In this document: piece by piece, positions 5,709 to 27,693 of the stretch
Layout of the letters: every line of letters starts with the position of its first letter
How positions within the stretch are numbered: position 1 is the first letter of the stretch
DNA from: a virus
DNA: 27,693 nt
IMG/VR virus record: IMGVR_UViG_3300042898_001886
Span: 1-27,693 of that record
Direction: 5' to 3' (one strand)
Program-made: the position numbers and the translations under genes
The notes under the pieces: generated by a model
What the model was told of the DNA's origin: nothing
Seen by the model: the letters and a program-made list of their open reading frames with translations, nothing else
Database searches by the model: none

Positions 5709-6644
5709 ATGGCAAGAGTGTTTGAATTCGTGAAGGCCGCGCAGCGCTCACCTGAATGGTTTGAGTTGCGCAAGGATGGAATCACAGCAACTGATGCGGT
5801 GGTGATTGCAGGGCTGTCACCCTACAAAACCCGCTACGAGCTGTGGGCACAAAAGAGCGGGCTGATTGGCGAGCAACCAGCAGGTGAGGCTGCCACCCGC
5901 GGCATCCTGCTTGAGCAGGCTGTGGCTGATTGGTACACGCTAGAAACCGGCAGGAAGTTGAAGCGCAGCAATGGCATTGTGCGGCGCATTGATATCCCGT
6001 GGGCAATGGCAAGCCTTGACCGCACGGTGGTTGGTGAGCCTGGTTTGGTGGAGGTGAAAACCAGCACTAGCAGCCGCTGGCAGCTGTACCCCGTGCCGCC
6101 TGAGTATGTGGCACAGGTGCAGTGGCAGGCATTCTGCACAGGCGCACCGTGGGTTGATGTGGTGGCGCTGCTAGGCGGCTTGAAGTTTAGGTGTGAGCGC
6201 GTAATGGCTGACCCTGAATATCAGCAAGAGCTGTACCGCAAGGCAGTTGAGTTTCGTGAGTTGATTGCCAGCGGCAAGCCGCCAGAGGTAATTGGCACAG
6301 ACTCAGACACGCTGGCAAAGGTGGTGCCGCAAGCCAGCGATGAATGGGCACACGCTGATGACGGCATTGAGCGCGTGGCTGAGCAGTATGCTGACGCGCT
6401 CTATGAGAGCAAGCTGGCTGATGAGCACCTACAGAATCTGGCAGTGGTGATTAAGGAAGCCATTGGGGATAAGGTGGGAATCACCGGCAGGGGCTGGTAC
6501 GCCAGCTGGAAACAGAATAAACCCAGCCGCAAAGTAGATTTCAAAGCGGCGCTGGAGGCGGCAAAGGTGCCTCAGGAAATCATTGAAGGCGCAACTCAGG
6601 AAGTACCTGGGGCGCGAGTGTTTAAGTTTAAGAGGGGGGAATGA
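5709..6644 (+). CDS. YqaJ-like viral recombinase/exonuclease
   Basis: This 311-aa protein matches the YqaJ/lambda-Exo-like nuclease family. It opens with SPEWFELRKDGITATDA (14-30), then has Glu69 in GILLE, Asp104 in ASLDR, the catalytic Glu-Val-Lys triad element at 115-117 (VEVKTS) and the Gln-rich QVQWQ motif at 136-140. Such enzymes resect double-strand ends 5' to 3' to leave single strands for an annealing protein, and the Rad52-like gene follows directly with a 4-nt overlap. The pair is a two-component recombination system acting on replicating DNA. Residues beyond about 200 form a helical C-terminal region common in the family. The AGGAGGG-type site just before the start fixes the ATG. 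Confidence 0.9.
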   Translation: MARVFEFVKAAQRSPEWFELRKDGITATDAVVIAGLSPYKTRYELWAQKSGLIGEQPAGEAATRGILLEQAVADWYTLETGRKLKRSNGIVRRIDIPWAMASLDRTVVGEPGLVEVKTSTSSRWQLYPVPPEYVAQVQWQAFCTGAPWVDVVALLGGLKFRCERVMADPEYQQELYRKAVEFRELIASGKPPEVIGTDSDTLAKVVPQASDEWAHADDGIERVAEQYADALYESKLADEHLQNLAVVIKEAIGDKVGITGRGWYASWKQNKPSRKVDFKAALEAAKVPQEIIEGATQEVPGARVFKFKRGE

Positions 6645-7378
6645 TGAGCAAGGAAATTGCAGCGGCGCTTAGCGCGCCATTTGAGGCTAAGGATTTGAAG
6701 CAGCGCCCAGGCAGGGCTGGTTTAGTGTTCACATACGCTGACGCTCGTGCCGTGGCACAGCGGCTTGATGATGTGCTGGGAATCGCTGGCTGGCAGTTTG
6801 AGGTCAAGGTGGCTGACCCTGCTAGGTGCGTGGTGCACGGCAGCTTGGCGCTGGTGATTGATGGCAGCACCACAATCCGCCAAGATTATGGCTATCCCAA
6901 TGGGCCACAGGATGATGAGCCGCTTAAGTCAGCGGTGAGCGATGCGCTCCGCCGGTGCGCGGCACAGGTGGGCGTTGGCAGGAGCCTTTACAGCCCCGAT
7001 AAGAGCGCTGGGGCTATCAAGCCCCAGCCTACGGCTGCACCAGCCGTTAGCGTTGCGGAAAAGGGCAAATACGGCGATTTTAGCGAGGGGGTCACAGCCC
7101 CTTCAAATGATGACCTGCTGGCAGTGAAGGCTGCAATGATTTTTGCAGAGTCAACCACTGACGGCACCTGCAGCCACGGGCAGGCTTGGAGCCTGAAGCC
7201 AGGTGGCGTGAGCAAAGCTACGGGCAAGCCCTATAACCCATTCTGGGCGGCGAGCCACAAGGCACCTGATGGCTCGTGGTGCAAGGATAAGCCAAGCAAT
7301 CAGTGGGTAGCAGCCCACAGCAAGCCAGCGGCACCGGCACTGGTGCCTGAGGATACGCTTGAGGAGTTGCCTTTTTAG
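6641..7378 (+). CDS. Rad52-family single-strand annealing protein
   Basis: This 245-aa protein has a Rad52/Sak-like core at about residues 15-118: a TYADARAVAQRLDDVLG helix, the GWQFEVK strand, and the DEPLKSAVSDALRRCAAQVGVG motif typical of the family. It would anneal complementary strands made by the YqaJ exonuclease encoded just upstream. After a linker, residues 177-214 form a Cys/His module (Cys177, His179, His206, Cys214) that may bind zinc or DNA. The protein ends in an acidic -DTLEELPF tip resembling the C-terminal tail of bacterial SSB. Two start codons in tandem (6641 and 6644) are both usable. Confidence 0.83.
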   Translation: MMSKEIAAALSAPFEAKDLKQRPGRAGLVFTYADARAVAQRLDDVLGIAGWQFEVKVADPARCVVHGSLALVIDGSTTIRQDYGYPNGPQDDEPLKSAVSDALRRCAAQVGVGRSLYSPDKSAGAIKPQPTAAPAVSVAEKGKYGDFSEGVTAPSNDDLLAVKAAMIFAESTTDGTCSHGQAWSLKPGGVSKATGKPYNPFWAASHKAPDGSWCKDKPSNQWVAAHSKPAAPALVPEDTLEELPF

Positions 7379-11018: not shown

Positions 11019-11408
11019 ATGGCAAAGGTAAGCAAGCGTGAGGTATCAGCAGCCCTGCGAGCTGCTGGCTTCAACGCTGAGGAATTTGCAACCGGCGTTG
11101 GCCTTGTGCCTTGCACAAGCGGCACCTGCATTGATTGGGTATGGAGCGATGGCGTGCAGGTTTCAATTCCTGCAGCGCCACACAAGCACCGTAGGCAGGT
11201 TGCTGAGCGCAAGCACACGGCTGGGTACAAGCTAATGCAATCAAGGAAGGGCGTAATCGTTAGGGGTGTCAACCCAGAAACCGTGCGCTTGGTGCTCACG
11301 CTATTTGGTTTTGATGTTGAGCTTACTGAGCAGTACGCTTGGCGGGCATTCTCACGCACTGTGCGATATGACAGCGCAATAGTAGTAGGAAAGGCTGGGG
11401 TGCGCTAA
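11019..11408 (+). CDS. Hypothetical 129-aa protein
   Basis: This is the first gene after promoter P3, with an AAGAGGTGG stretch just before the ATG. The product has a basic N-terminal helix (KREVSAALRAAGF), a Cys-containing beta segment (VPCTSGTCIDWVW) and a basic middle (PHKHRRQVAERKH). The C-terminal half has predicted strands (ETVRLVLTLFGFDVEL). The basic character fits nucleic-acid binding, but no family is recognised. TAATG links it to the next gene. Confidence 0.65.
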   Translation: MAKVSKREVSAALRAAGFNAEEFATGVGLVPCTSGTCIDWVWSDGVQVSIPAAPHKHRRQVAERKHTAGYKLMQSRKGVIVRGVNPETVRLVLTLFGFDVELTEQYAWRAFSRTVRYDSAIVVGKAGVR

Positions 11409-13718: not shown

Positions 13719-14935
13719 GCCGCATTGCTTGGTATTCAAACAGCTGTGCCGTGCCAAGTGGCTATGGGCAGCAATCGGCTCAAGTGGTGCACAGGATGGT
13801 GCAGGACGGGCACGAGGTAGCGATTAGCGCCAACCACGGCGCAAGCGTAATGATGAATTGCGCGAGCGGGCACATCATCCTGCCTGAAGGGTTGATGCGC
13901 TACAGCATTGACGCTGCGCCAGAGAATATGAAAGCGTGGGCTGAGGGCAAGCCAGATTCGTTTGGGGTGGTGCTTTTTGATTTGTGGCCGCTCGTAGGTG
14001 TTGAGGGCTTTAAAGAGTTAAACCTTGCCTGCTGGACACCCGTAGACCATAAACCCCTGCCACCAATGGTGCTGCAGTTTCTGCGTGAGGGAAGCCACCA
14101 CGCCATTGCAATGAGTCAGTTTGGCGAGCAAGAGCTGCTTAGCGCGGGAGTTCCGCGCGCGGAGGTTTCCTATATCCCGCACGCCATTGACCGCACCGTG
14201 TTTAAAGACACAGGCAAGGGTGCGCGTGAGGCTATGGGGATTCCAGCCGATGCTTTCCTTGTGGTGACTAATGCAGCCAACCGTGGGCGCATCCCCGTGC
14301 GCAAGGGCTTTGGTGAAATGGCTGATGCGATGAGCCGCTTGATGGCTGACCGCAAAGATGTTTACTGGATGCTTCACACTGAGCCCAATGGATTCAGTGA
14401 GGGCGTAAACATTCCACGCCTAGTGGCGCACCTTGGGATTGACCAGCAGCGCGTGCGTTACCCGCACCCAATGCATTGGCGTAACGGAATCGCTGACAGT
14501 TCCATTGCCGCAATGTTTTCTGCTGCAGATTGCCAGTTACTCACAAGTATGGGGGAGGGCTTTGGAATCCCTGCCGTGGAGGGGATGGCTACGGGTACAC
14601 CGTGCGTGGTTTCGGATTTCAGCGCGCAGGCTGAGCTCGTTGGCGTGCATAGCCACAAAGTGCCGGTGCAACGCGTGTGGGATGAGTTCCAGCAATCCTT
14701 TTTTGCTATCCCAAATGTTGAGGCTATCTACAAAGCCCTGCAGTCTGTCTATGAGGAAACCAAGGCAGGGAAGGTTGACCGCGCTGCCGTGGCAGCAGAA
14801 ATGGCACGCTATGACGCTGACACCGTTTATGAGGAAAAGTGGAAGCCACTGATTGCGCTGATGAGCGCACGCCAGAAACCAGCGGCACAGCAGCCGCTTA
14901 ACCGCGCAGCGCGCAGAGCGAAGGGGGGAAAGTAA
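13715..14935 (+). CDS. Glycosyltransferase, GT4-like (GT-B fold)
   Basis: This 406-aa protein has a GT-B/GT4 layout: an N-terminal Rossmann half beginning SRIAWYSNSCAVPSGYGQQS (glycine-rich acceptor side), a linker with SYIPHAID (152-159), and a C-terminal donor-binding half with the E-x7-E pair Glu281/Glu289 in EGFGIPAVEGMATGTPCVVSD. Such enzymes move a sugar from a nucleotide donor to an acceptor in the cytoplasm. In phages the acceptor may be modified DNA bases, capsid or tail proteins, or host wall glycans; none is shown here. ATG 13715 follows GGGGGG and overlaps the endonuclease VII stop. A basic C-terminal tail (NRAARRAKGGK) is present. Confidence 0.85.
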   Translation: MSRIAWYSNSCAVPSGYGQQSAQVVHRMVQDGHEVAISANHGASVMMNCASGHIILPEGLMRYSIDAAPENMKAWAEGKPDSFGVVLFDLWPLVGVEGFKELNLACWTPVDHKPLPPMVLQFLREGSHHAIAMSQFGEQELLSAGVPRAEVSYIPHAIDRTVFKDTGKGAREAMGIPADAFLVVTNAANRGRIPVRKGFGEMADAMSRLMADRKDVYWMLHTEPNGFSEGVNIPRLVAHLGIDQQRVRYPHPMHWRNGIADSSIAAMFSAADCQLLTSMGEGFGIPAVEGMATGTPCVVSDFSAQAELVGVHSHKVPVQRVWDEFQQSFFAIPNVEAIYKALQSVYEETKAGKVDRAAVAAEMARYDADTVYEEKWKPLIALMSARQKPAAQQPLNRAARRAKGGK

Positions 14936-15414
14936 TGCACGATTACGAGGCGGCCTTTAAGCAGGGGCATTATTACAATGAGCTCGTGGGCGAGTACCTT
15001 GCGGTGCACGGCATTGCCAACACCGTACCGGCACTAGAGATTGCAAAGGATAAGGCTGACCGCGCACGGTTCACTGCGCTTGAGAAAGATGTGGTGCTAC
15101 TTGATGGGCGGGTGATTGAGGTAAAGGGTGTGAGCCCTGACTTTGACTGGGAGCCATCCAGCTACAAAGCCCGCAACACAATCATTGTGGACACAGAGAG
15201 CGGCTACCACGGCAAGGTAGTCAAGCCCATTGCCTATGTGTTTGTGAGCCGCGTGAGTGAGGCAATGCTGGTGATTAGCACCAAGACCTTTGGGCAGTGG
15301 GAAGTTAAAGAGCTGCCAGACCATAGCCGCGGCATTGACCGTGAGCGCTTTCTGGTGGCGAGCACGAGCCTGCTCCGCCCGATGGATAAACTCATTGAGC
15401 ACCTTGCTGCTTAA
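14935..15414 (+). CDS. PD-(D/E)XK-like nuclease, unknown role
   Basis: This 159-aa protein has a possible restriction-endonuclease-like core: Glu16 in HYYNELVGEYL, Asp52 in EKDVVLLDG and Glu62-Val-Lys64 in VIEVKGVS, followed by a conserved-looking hydrophobic strand (IAYVFVSRVSEAMLVIS). This is the E...D...ExK arrangement with normal spacing. It is coupled to the glycosyltransferase by TAATG and is followed by a 95-nt gap before the small terminase. A sugar-dependent or packaging-related nuclease is possible; the family is not recognised with certainty. Confidence 0.55.
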   Translation: MHDYEAAFKQGHYYNELVGEYLAVHGIANTVPALEIAKDKADRARFTALEKDVVLLDGRVIEVKGVSPDFDWEPSSYKARNTIIVDTESGYHGKVVKPIAYVFVSRVSEAMLVISTKTFGQWEVKELPDHSRGIDRERFLVASTSLLRPMDKLIEHLAA

Positions 15415-17499: not shown

Positions 17500-18687
17500 G
17501 TGGGAATCATTGACCGCATCCTTGGGCGAGAAACAGAAACTGAGCAGCGCGTAGTTGCACCGTGGTGGCCGTCAGACTATCCGCAACGCACCGCCGGTGT
17601 TTCAATCACACAGGAAAATGCCACCGCAATTGGAGCCGTATGGGCCGCGGTGAATCTCTATAGTTCAACAGTTGCCAGCCTGCCGTGGGGCGCATTTATC
17701 CGTGACGCTGGTGTGCGCAGACCCGTTACCCGCCCGCGCTGGATGGATGTGCCAATTCCTAATAACCCTAACTACACGCCATTTGATTTCAAGCACCGCT
17801 TGGTTTCCAGCTTGCTGCTTGACGGCAATGCATTTATTCTGGTGCTCCGCTCGCCTGATGGCGTAGTGGTTGAAACCCGCGTGCTTGACCCGCAAAAGGT
17901 GGAGTGCGTGCGCGGCGAGATGGGCGAGCCGCTTTACAAAATCACTACACAGGAAGGCAGCAGCACGCTGGGTGCTGATAACATTGTGCACATTCCGTTG
18001 TTTGCAACGGGCGAGCATATGCGTGGAATGTCACCAATTGAGCACCACCGCGTAACCCTTGGGCTTGCAAGCGCATCCCAATTGTTTGGCGCGAAGTTCT
18101 ACGAGCAGGGCGCAACGGTTGGCGGTGTGGTGAAGGTGCCTGGTGAGTTGACGGCAGACCAAGCAGAGAATCTGCGCGCAGGATTTGCACGCAGGCACGA
18201 GGGTGTTGACCGCGCTTGGCGCGTTGCAGTGCTCACCGGCGGCGCTGACTATTCACAGATGAGCGTAAAGATTTCTGACCTGCAGCTTGTAGAAACTCTC
18301 CATTGGGGTGTTGAAAGCGTGGGGAGAATTTATGGTGTGCCCCTTCAGTACCTGCAATACCCAGGCGGCAACACCAGCTATAACAGCGCAGAAACGCTTG
18401 GGCAGGCCTGGCTGGTTTTGGGATTAGCGCCAATGCTTGCACGAATTGAAGCGGGCTTGCAGCGCCTTATCGTTGGAGAAACCACCTTTATCAAGTTCAA
18501 CACCGCTGGGCTGTTGCGCGCAACGCAGCGCGAGCGAATGGATTCCTATGCGGTTGCTTTGCAAAACGGAATTCTCACGCTAGATGAAGTGCGCACTTAT
18601 GAGGATTTGCCGCGGCTCGCAGTTGGCGGTGACCAGCATTGGAAGCCACTAAACATTGGCGTAGTAGGGGAGGAGCCGCAGCCTTGA
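17500..18687 (+). CDS. Portal protein, HK97 family
   Basis: This 395-aa protein matches HK97-type portals: AIGAVWAAVNLYSSTVASLP (44-63), a LLLDGNAFILVLR segment, GMSPIEHHRVTLGLA, the KFYEQGATVGGVVK stretch, a SDLQLVETLHWGVESVGRIYGVP stem region and LGQAWLVLGLAPMLARIE. Twelve copies form the ring at the vertex through which DNA enters. Start GTG 17500 follows AGGGAG. The stop is covered by the TTG start of the protease fusion. Confidence 0.95.
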   Translation: MGIIDRILGRETETEQRVVAPWWPSDYPQRTAGVSITQENATAIGAVWAAVNLYSSTVASLPWGAFIRDAGVRRPVTRPRWMDVPIPNNPNYTPFDFKHRLVSSLLLDGNAFILVLRSPDGVVVETRVLDPQKVECVRGEMGEPLYKITTQEGSSTLGADNIVHIPLFATGEHMRGMSPIEHHRVTLGLASASQLFGAKFYEQGATVGGVVKVPGELTADQAENLRAGFARRHEGVDRAWRVAVLTGGADYSQMSVKISDLQLVETLHWGVESVGRIYGVPLQYLQYPGGNTSYNSAETLGQAWLVLGLAPMLARIEAGLQRLIVGETTFIKFNTAGLLRATQRERMDSYAVALQNGILTLDEVRTYEDLPRLAVGGDQHWKPLNIGVVGEEPQP

Positions 18688-20399
18688 GCTACATAATCAC
18701 AGACATTGACGGCACACTTACCACCACAGGCGATACGCCAAACCAGCCCTACATTGACTGGCTTAAGAGTTGGGTGCAGGATACTGGCGATGAGGTGATT
18801 GTGGTAAGCGCCCGCCCTATTTCACGCTTTGCTGAAACTGAACGCTGGCTTGACGAAAACTCAGTGCCCTACACGCAAGTGTTTCTGCAAGACTTCAATG
18901 AGGCTGGCGGCCCTGCTGTCAACGAAGCCTTTAAGGCATATAAGTATTCAAAACTGCAAGAGCAGTACGGTGACGAAATTTTGTTTTTGGTTGACAATGA
19001 CGCGGAGGCGCGTGATGCCGCTGAGGGTATGGGAATTAAAGCCTACACACCTGATGAGGTGCTAAGCGCCCAGCCTGAGCCTGACAGAGCGCTACCAGAT
19101 GCGTACCGCCCAGCCGGTACGGATGGCGCACCAGCAGGGCAGAATTGCGGAAACTGTGCCTTTTACAGTGACGGTTATTGCACAAAGTGGGATGCCAATG
19201 TTAAGAGGAATTATTATTGCGCGGCTTGGAAAGCGGTGGCGCAAACCGCTCCGCAAACCGCACCAGCAGAAAGCCCAAGCTCATACAGCGCAGACAATAC
19301 AGAGCACGATGAGGCACGCGTGGTGATTGATGTGCCTGAGTTTATCCGCGATGCTGCTGCCAAGGGCTTGACATATTACGAGAATGGCTACGCGGGTGAC
19401 GGGCTGCAGGAGCAGACCGTTGAGGAAGCGCGGCAGCTGCGCGCTGGGCAGGTTGAGGATGAAAAAGTTACGCGTATGCGCGCTTGGATTCTCCGCCACC
19501 GTGGCGATTGGGAGGGGGTGCCACAGAATAGTGACGCTGCCAATGATGACTTCCCAGGCCCTGGGGCTGTTGCCGGTTACCTGTGGGGCGTGGAGGTAAC
19601 ACAGGCTGATGGCGCTGACAGAGTTCTACAATGGGCAGACCGCGTGCTAAACACGCTGGCAAATGATGAAAGGTTTGATGTGAAAGAGTTTGAGCGCCGC
19701 GCCCTCCCAATGGGTGAGTTCACAGTTTCCGATACTGAGGATGGGCAAAAGACCTTCAGCGGCTATGCCGCTCTTTTTGATACACCAAGCGCAGGGCTGC
19801 CATTCACTGAGGTGATTGCACCAGGCGCATTCAAGCGCACGCTTTCACGCGCTGCCGCTGGCAGTAAGGTGGTTGCATTCCTGTTTGGGCACGATGAAAC
19901 CCGCGCACTTGCCACCACGGCAAGCGGGCGGCTCTCACTCCAGGAGGATGAGCGCGGGTTGCGCGTTGAGGCGAAGCTTGACCCTGCTGACCCTGACGCT
20001 GCCGGTGTTATTTCTAAGTTGACACACGAGGCCGCTGCAATGGGTATGAGCTTTGGCTTTACTACCCCAAAGGGCGGCGATGAGTGGAGCGGCGATAAGC
20101 GCACCATTCGTGAAGTCAACTTGTTTGAGGTGAGCGTGTTGAGCGCTGGGCAGACACCTGCCTACCCTGCAACGCTTGGCCTCACCGCTGTGCGCAAGCT
20201 CTCCGCCGATAAAATCGGTGTTGAGGCTGAGCGCCTTATGTCTACCCTTGAGGCAATCAAAGCTGCGCAACCGCTCAGCGATGATGACCTTGAGGTTATT
20301 GACCAGGTACGCAGTAAGTTGGCACCGCGCAAGGGGATTGACCCCAGCGTTGCGGCTGCAAAGTTGCTGCTTGAGCGCCTGGCAAACGATACGCTCTAA
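18684..20399 (+). CDS. HAD phosphatase - Cys4 - prohead protease fusion
   Basis: This 571-aa protein has at least three parts. Residues 1-125 are a HAD-type phosphatase like polynucleotide 3'-phosphatases: DIDGT with Asp7/Asp9, Ser42 in VVSARP, lysines at 84-90, and LVDND with Asp104/Asp106. Residues 150-185 hold a cysteine module (Cys155, Cys158, Cys166, Cys179, with CTKWD and YYCAAW). Residues 212-330 hold a helical domain (GLTYYENGYAGDGLQEQTV, RMRAWILRHRGDW). Residues about 335-505 are a U35/HK97 prohead protease with His403 (FGHDE) and Ser456 (GMSFGF). The protease would cut capsid delta-domains; the role of the front parts is unknown. TTG 18684 overlaps the portal stop and follows GGGGAGGAG. 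Confidence 0.85.
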   Translation: MSYIITDIDGTLTTTGDTPNQPYIDWLKSWVQDTGDEVIVVSARPISRFAETERWLDENSVPYTQVFLQDFNEAGGPAVNEAFKAYKYSKLQEQYGDEILFLVDNDAEARDAAEGMGIKAYTPDEVLSAQPEPDRALPDAYRPAGTDGAPAGQNCGNCAFYSDGYCTKWDANVKRNYYCAAWKAVAQTAPQTAPAESPSSYSADNTEHDEARVVIDVPEFIRDAAAKGLTYYENGYAGDGLQEQTVEEARQLRAGQVEDEKVTRMRAWILRHRGDWEGVPQNSDAANDDFPGPGAVAGYLWGVEVTQADGADRVLQWADRVLNTLANDERFDVKEFERRALPMGEFTVSDTEDGQKTFSGYAALFDTPSAGLPFTEVIAPGAFKRTLSRAAAGSKVVAFLFGHDETRALATTASGRLSLQEDERGLRVEAKLDPADPDAAGVISKLTHEAAAMGMSFGFTTPKGGDEWSGDKRTIREVNLFEVSVLSAGQTPAYPATLGLTAVRKLSADKIGVEAERLMSTLEAIKAAQPLSDDDLEVIDQVRSKLAPRKGIDPSVAAAKLLLERLANDTL

Positions 20400-26848: not shown

Positions 26849-27693
26849 TGTCAAACCCGTATTCAGTAACAATTGCTGGTGTGGGCGGCGGCACCGCAAA
26901 CCTGCTGACGCTGCCAGCCTCAACCGCTGGCACCACCCCATACATTGAGCTTGGCAGCCTAAGCGCAACTGTTAGCGCTGATGGTGGCGGCAGAATGTCA
27001 TTTGATGTTTTGCAAACTGAAACCCCCATTGCTGGCCCTTGGTGGAAGTCTGGCAACATTCCCGATAATGCGCGTGTTCAATTTCTAGACACACGCTATT
27101 CCTCAGGTACGGCACTTTTTCTTGGGTATATCACCGGCATTGATGCAGAGATGTTGGGCAGCGGGTTTGGCACGAGGGCAAGGGTTAGCGTTGCCGACGC
27201 TGACGGCTGGCTTGCAAAAACATTGGTCAGAAAGTCATACACCGGCACAGACATTTACCAAACAGTGGGTTCATTTAAGCAGAGTGGCAATAGCCTTACT
27301 GACCGTGACCACATTAATGCTCTGCTCGCCAGAATCCACAACCAGGTAAACGATGCAACCACGCGGCAGATTCTAGACACCAGCGTTATCACTGGCAGCA
27401 CTCGTGCCGTCTATTCTGGAACAGCCGTAACGCTTGGCACGCTGGATTTCAAGCCAACTACTCTAACCAGCGCAATTAGCCAGATTTCAGAGGAAGCAAG
27501 TGGGATAACTGGCACCCCATACAATTTCTATGTTGATGGAGCTGCGCGCCTAAACTATGGCCCCATTACTGTGCCAGGCACGGCTACTGCGCCAGCCGAA
27601 ATCGTCACTGACCCTACGGCTGCGCGCACTGGAAGCGCTGGTACTGCCACGCGCCTGCTCGCGCACAATCTTTCCGTGACCCTAGACCACGAT
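26848..27693 (+). CDS. Minor tail protein, N-terminal part (continues at 1-688)
   Basis: ATG 26848 overlaps the tape measure stop (TAATG). The frame runs open through the end of the window and through the 127-bp repeat into position 1, where it continues to the stop at 688. The N-terminal 240 residues include beta-rich stretches (YIELGSLSATVSADGGGRMSFDV, TALFLGYITGIDAEM shown in pieces) resembling distal-tail/hub proteins that follow tape measure genes. The intact product is 468 aa. A hub or adsorption-apparatus role follows from gene order; no enzyme motif is seen. Confidence 0.8.
   Translation, partial: MSNPYSVTIAGVGGGTANLLTLPASTAGTTPYIELGSLSATVSADGGGRMSFDVLQTETPIAGPWWKSGNIPDNARVQFLDTRYSSGTALFLGYITGIDAEMLGSGFGTRARVSVADADGWLAKTLVRKSYTGTDIYQTVGSFKQSGNSLTDRDHINALLARIHNQVNDATTRQILDTSVITGSTRAVYSGTAVTLGTLDFKPTTLTSAISQISEEASGITGTPYNFYVDGAARLNYGPITVPGTATAPAEIVTDPTAARTGSAGTATRLLAHNLSVTLDHD
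27567..27693. repeat. Right copy of 127-bp terminal direct repeat
   Basis: Exact copy of bases 1-127. Position 27567 corresponds to position 1, so the unique genome is 27,566 bp. Confidence 0.95.

Follow-up and report, generated by a model that had tools for sequence, protein, structure and literature searches.

Prohead proteases of uncultured phages carry a polynucleotide-phosphatase-like domain and a conserved putative internal start

Results and discussion

The window analysed here, the complete 27,693-nucleotide stretch of the IMG/VR virus record IMGVR_UViG_3300042898_001886, contains in its late head operon, flanked by the genes for the portal and the major capsid protein, a frame that probably gives two products. 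Conserved start sites and codons suggest that it makes a 571-residue fusion of a HAD phosphatase domain, a HiPIP-like module, a helical domain and a prohead protease, and also a normal-sized protease of 239 residues. Two products are likely because both starts look selected. Of the two, the longer one is probably an alternative version of the protease that bears a cargo. It is encoded by a single open frame on the plus strand (18684..20399), and its parts and the two Shine-Dalgarno-like sequences described below are on the same strand. The frame is open for 571 codons from TTG 18684 and holds the four parts that the first-pass annotation had named, with the residues singled out there in the phosphatase, the cysteine module and the protease all in place.

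The upstream start and the reality of the fusion

The TTG start codon of the long frame overlaps the stop codon of the portal gene (TTGA), and the Shine-Dalgarno-like sequence ggggaggag (18667..18675) is located 8 nt ahead of it. Among 86 distinct start regions of relatives, the overlap has the form GTGA in 50, TTGA in 10, and ATGA in 2, and a Shine-Dalgarno core of at least 4 nt is present in 68 of the 86. Therefore, the upstream TTG start is very likely real.

The HAD domain, the helical domain and the protease are kept in frame in 102 distinct IMG/VR frames, in each of which an enzyme domain is thus joined to a head-processing peptidase. The first-pass annotation had pointed to other phages as the place to look for the same fusion, and had warned that a sequencing error could have joined two separate genes. 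The 102 distinct in-frame examples provide the former and rule out a sequencing fusion or assembly error as the source of the joined frame. The IMG/VR frames that contain a HAD domain without a protease are all truncated by a contig end, apart from those in two contigs with a broken frame. These contigs, one represented by L142/L147 and the other by L127, are the sole cases in which the HAD-protease frame is interrupted.

The HAD phosphatase domain

The HAD domain comprises residues 1–128 (18684..19067) and was assigned as PNKP/PseT-like from motifs, AlphaFold2, Foldseek and PHROG. Its predicted catalytic residues Asp7, Asp9, Ser42, Lys84, Asp104 and Asp106 belong, together with Arg44 and Arg110, to eight HAD motif residues that are invariant across 66 relatives. 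The AlphaFold2 model of the domain (mean pLDDT 93.1) has a HAD fold, which settles the concern, raised with the original proposal, that a structure model might lack one. The domain combines the Rossmann-like fold and the motifs DxD, S/T, K and D(x)D of the HAD superfamily. The phosphatase looks catalytically intact, and the substitution pattern indicates that purifying selection acts on it (median pairwise dN/dS 0.29, compared with 0.19 for the helical domain and 0.12 for the protease).

PHROG 415 (phrog_415, polynucleotide kinase) matches the domain at 5e-13 and matches all 18 members tested. The PNKP profile PF25109 also matches 18 of 18 members, at scores under its cut-off (20.3 bits for the window, 27.6 bits needed). 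A Foldseek search with the HAD model gave lipin/Pah, Nir2, Pnkp1 and T4 Pnkp among its matches, and the highest query TM-score among the 50 matches listed was that of T4 Pnkp (0.79). PHROG 415, AlphaFold2 and Foldseek support the HAD assignment that had been made from motifs. As to kinship within the superfamily, PHROG 415 and tblastn point to PNKP, and Foldseek gives lipin/Pah and Nir2 in addition. The HAD domain of the related locus L138 is approximately 30% identical to T4-type polynucleotide kinase/phosphatases over 93–96% of the domain (tblastn), and alignment of the RB49 polynucleotide kinase/phosphatase with the HAD domain puts the motifs in register. The scores of the HAD domain also come near lipin/LNS2 phosphatases, and Arg176 of T4 Pnkp has no conserved counterpart here. 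We favour the 3′-phosphatase halves of phage polynucleotide kinases as the closest characterised relatives of the domain, and, from this sequence kinship, nucleic-acid 3′-phosphate ends as its candidate substrate. Single-sequence Pfam matches of the HAD domain fall under the curated cut-offs. Because such cut-offs are not reached, we claim for PNKP, and likewise for HiPIP, that the domain works like the named family, not that it is a member.

The domain shares the HAD fold and motifs with the phosphatase half of T4 PseT and RB49 polynucleotide kinase/phosphatases, but it has no kinase half and is fused to a prohead protease. A further difference concerns the ligase partner, for which 13 near-full-length genomes were searched without a match to either an RNA ligase (PF09414) or a DNA ligase (PF01068). 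Any end repair would therefore depend on a host ligase. In BFVD, the HAD model matched several long chains of viral origin that bear the name "Prohead protease" (64% identity for the best one) and a few short free-standing HAD relatives. The automatic label "prohead protease" can thus hide an enzyme. A first scan of bacterial and archaeal genomes found no HAD relatives, and a second scan found six weak ones (27–43% identity).

The HiPIP-like module

Residues 135–186 (19086..19241) form a module with four cysteines at positions 155, 158, 166 and 179, all of which are conserved in each of the seven Cys4 variants. PF01355 matches all seven, and HiPIP structures top the PDB profile search. The PF01355 scores are under the Pfam cut-off, with 20.8 bits for the best variant and 14.1 bits for the window compared with the 22 bits required. 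The likeness to HiPIP consists of the four cysteines with a CxxC motif, the C-terminal YC-x2-W, and the best profile match in both Pfam and PDB. The module differs from HiPIP in being shorter and part of a phage head protein. AlphaFold2 modelling of this part was poor. According to the profiles, the module resembles a [4Fe-4S] HiPIP and not a generic Cys4 finger. A zinc-ribbon identity was considered and rejected, since the profile matches HiPIP in Pfam and PDB instead. Of the four-cysteine module in the first-pass annotation, the positions of the cysteines stand, whereas its generic character does not. Judging by its absence from most relatives, the module is dispensable.

The helical domain and the prohead protease

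The helical domain (residues ~212–325, 19317..19658) is confidently modelled, with pLDDT values of 93–98 over most of its length, and lies inside the PHROG 80 span. It is present in nearly all related frames. A Foldseek search with the model of the Cys4 and helical parts matched no solved structure, and a comparison of the whole long protein with the sequences of solved structures gave nothing useful. In L019:2837-4372, the helical domain contains a short tandem duplication in which GLQPETVEEAR is repeated.

The C-terminal part is certain, from its profile matches, to be an HK97-family prohead protease. The HK97/S78 region spans residues ~335–510, and the Peptidase S78 domain covers residues 349–497 (19728..20174). 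PF04586 matches at 4e-30 (105.5 bits, cut-off 21) and TIGR01543 at 4e-25 (88.6 bits, cut-off 59). His403 (codon at 19890) and Ser456 (codon at 20049), which had been proposed as residues of a U35-type protease, are both invariant in alignment A2. The protease shares its domain, these two active-site residues, and its position after the portal gene and before that of the major capsid protein with the HK97 family (PF04586, TIGR01543, PHROG 80), but here it has approximately 330 additional N-terminal residues and a nested internal start. In L110:3938-5842 and L111, the protease frame continues for approximately 115 additional C-terminal residues.

A conserved, predicted internal start at the protease junction

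The Shine-Dalgarno-like sequence gaaagg (19668..19673), the agg of which is the codon of Arg330, is separated by 6 nt from GTG 19680, the codon of residue 333. Initiation there would give the predicted short product, an HK97-type prohead protease of 239 residues (19680..20399). Plain prohead proteases of two isolates have 255 and 200 residues, and 239 residues is an ordinary size for the HK97 type.

An in-frame start codon is present at the helical-protease junction in 102 of 102 distinct frames. Shine-Dalgarno pairing of −6 kcal/mol or stronger was found for 77% of native starts, 14% of other in-frame start codons, and 76% of junctions, the last figure being slightly generous because it uses the best codon within a short linker. 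Residue 333 is valine in 77, methionine in 12 and leucine in 9 of 98 close relatives, and its codon is GTG, ATG or TTG in all 98. It is the sole column with 100% NTG among 32 columns of valine, methionine or leucine. This fixed-site test was confined to the 98 close relatives, as the linker aligns badly across distant lineages. Arg330 is encoded by AGG in 71 of 71 sequences, whereas AGG makes up at most 12% in each of the other 24 arginine columns. Synonymous variation at residues 325–333 is reduced to 0.58 of expectation. The counts refer to related sequences, not independent events, and the control columns, taken from the same sequences, contrast strongly. Divergent lineages have other sequences with the same device at the junction, for example AAGGAG followed by ATG. 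The internal Shine-Dalgarno sequence of the window (gaaagg, −3.8 kcal/mol) is weaker than that of most relatives. The internal ribosome-binding site and start are thus conserved beyond the coding constraint, as expected of a nested gene. The original reading was of a single long protein, but the internal site predicts a separate protease too. Synonymous variation is likewise reduced to 0.58 of expectation in another stretch, near the C terminus of the protease (20253-20279, residues 524–532 of the long product).

Architectures of relatives and exchange of N-terminal modules

The usual architecture among the IMG/VR loci is HAD-helical-protease. The HAD-Cys4-helical-protease arrangement occurs in the window and in a few contigs nearly identical to it. 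Other loci have the architectures NT-HAD-helical-protease, NT-helical-protease, or NT-Cys4-helical-protease, in which NT is a module of approximately 50 residues that starts with MPYFITD. The last arrangement includes the 484-residue prohead protease of Pontimonas phage phiPsal1, which, like the window, joins the Cys4, helical and protease domains within a single frame but has the 50-residue NT module in place of HAD. No HAD domain was found anywhere in the phiPsal1 genome.

The identities of HAD and protease to those of the window differ from relative to relative: 54% and 84% in L058, 64% and 46% in L138, and 49% and 30% in L174. In L022 and L057, the proteases are 84–87% identical to that of the window, and other modules occupy the place of HAD. 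Therefore, on the evidence of the alignments, N-terminal modules are exchanged between phages. In L135:1553-2056, a DUF5824 domain (PF19141, 2e-8) is inserted between HAD and the helical domain. The motif VYRRGxGAYSxSHRP of this DUF5824-bearing frame also occurs in L189.

Proposed mechanism and alternatives

A mechanism based on two nested products can be proposed. Ribosomes coupled to the portal stop would produce the long form, and ribosomes entering at the internal site would produce the short protease, to which most processing of the capsid would fall. The long form would enter the prohead by means of the protease domain that both forms share, taking the phosphatase inside. The protease would then probably free the N-terminal part by cleavage, and the freed part may stay in the virion or pass with the DNA into the next host. 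It could remove phosphates from the 3′ ends of nucleic acids or from related nucleotide substrates. The N-terminal region would thus be an exchangeable cargo slot, into which HAD, the HiPIP-like module, DUF5824 and the small 50-residue module are swapped in relatives. Delivery in or with the head is plausible. We infer release by self-cleavage and subsequent injection, which agrees with what has been proposed for Nudix-peptidase fusions and polyvalent proteins. The model as a whole, with its two starts, prohead loading, release, and 3′-end phosphatase, has in our judgement an even chance of being correct. Its extension, in which the prohead protease is an encapsulation tag and the loading of exchangeable cargo for the next host is common to many small uncultured phages, is put forward tentatively.

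The phosphatase may instead act in the host cytoplasm late in infection on nucleotides or nucleic-acid ends, either still attached to the protease or released from it, and be fused for co-expression and not as virion cargo. Such a role would suit a domain that looks catalytically intact in a genome with genes for a RecE-like exonuclease, Erf, endonuclease VII and a dNMP kinase. However, HAD is encoded in the late head operon, 102 distinct frames keep it joined to the protease, and no free copies were seen in the IMG/VR loci, although short free relatives exist in BFVD. We regard the cytoplasmic role as rather unlikely. The N-terminal part could also regulate assembly by delaying or positioning the protease in the prohead, with enzyme activity secondary or absent. 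The invariant active site of HAD, which a spacer would not need, makes this improbable, even though the helical domain is nearly always there and the slot can hold N-terminal modules of differing kinds. Next, two ordinary genes may merely have no stop between them, so that the joined product is incidental and the protease is perhaps all that matters. The strong conservation of the internal start and the faster evolution of HAD than of the protease would be expected in that case, but the dN/dS of HAD, its invariant active site, the conserved upstream start, and the lack of a stop in 102 distinct frames make it very improbable. Finally, the processing of DNA ends during packaging, suggested in the first-pass annotation, has PNKP kinship and adjoining packaging genes in its favour and is nevertheless extremely unlikely, because HAD is replaced in L022 and L057 and was not found in phiPsal1, no ligase was found in the 13 genomes, and terminase cleavage is understood to leave 3′-OH ends.

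Relation to known systems

The nested arrangement preferred here, with a long and a short product from one frame, resembles C/Nu3 of phage lambda, in which an internal start gives a short C-terminal product in addition to a long protease-containing one. The short product is the scaffold in lambda, whereas here it is predicted to be the protease itself. Packaging and injection have been proposed for Nudix domains that are joined to the serine peptidase that processes the capsid (PMC9503650), and a comparable proposal exists for polyvalent proteins (PMC5512222). These resemble the present frame in linking an enzyme domain to a peptidase of head processing; the differences are the HAD enzyme, the HiPIP-like module, and the conserved internal start from which the protease alone would be made. 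Literature searches, which covered few subscription journals, gave no report of a HAD-prohead-protease fusion, a HiPIP in a phage head, or an internal start of a prohead protease. As far as found, fusions of enzymes to prohead peptidases had already been proposed (Nudix), and the PNKP-type HAD, the HiPIP-like module and the nested protease start are apparently new.

If the proposed mechanism is true, a large group of uncultured phages uses its head protease to carry cargo as well, and the swapped N-terminal slot marks enzymes that these phages may introduce into a new host. The internal start would offer a precise genetic handle to separate capsid maturation from cargo delivery.

Genome context

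The first and last 127 bases of the record are identical (1–127 and 27567–27693). Therefore, it probably represents a circular genome assembled in full, with a length of 27566 bp. A search for tRNA genes in the window found none, and the proteins encoded at 11019-11408 and 14935-15414 have no Pfam or PHROG match. The genes of the RecE-like exonuclease and the Erf-type annealing protein adjoin each other (5709-7378). A methyltransferase (PF13578, 10359-10940) and a GT4-type glycosyltransferase (PF00534, 13688-14935) are encoded upstream of the packaging genes.
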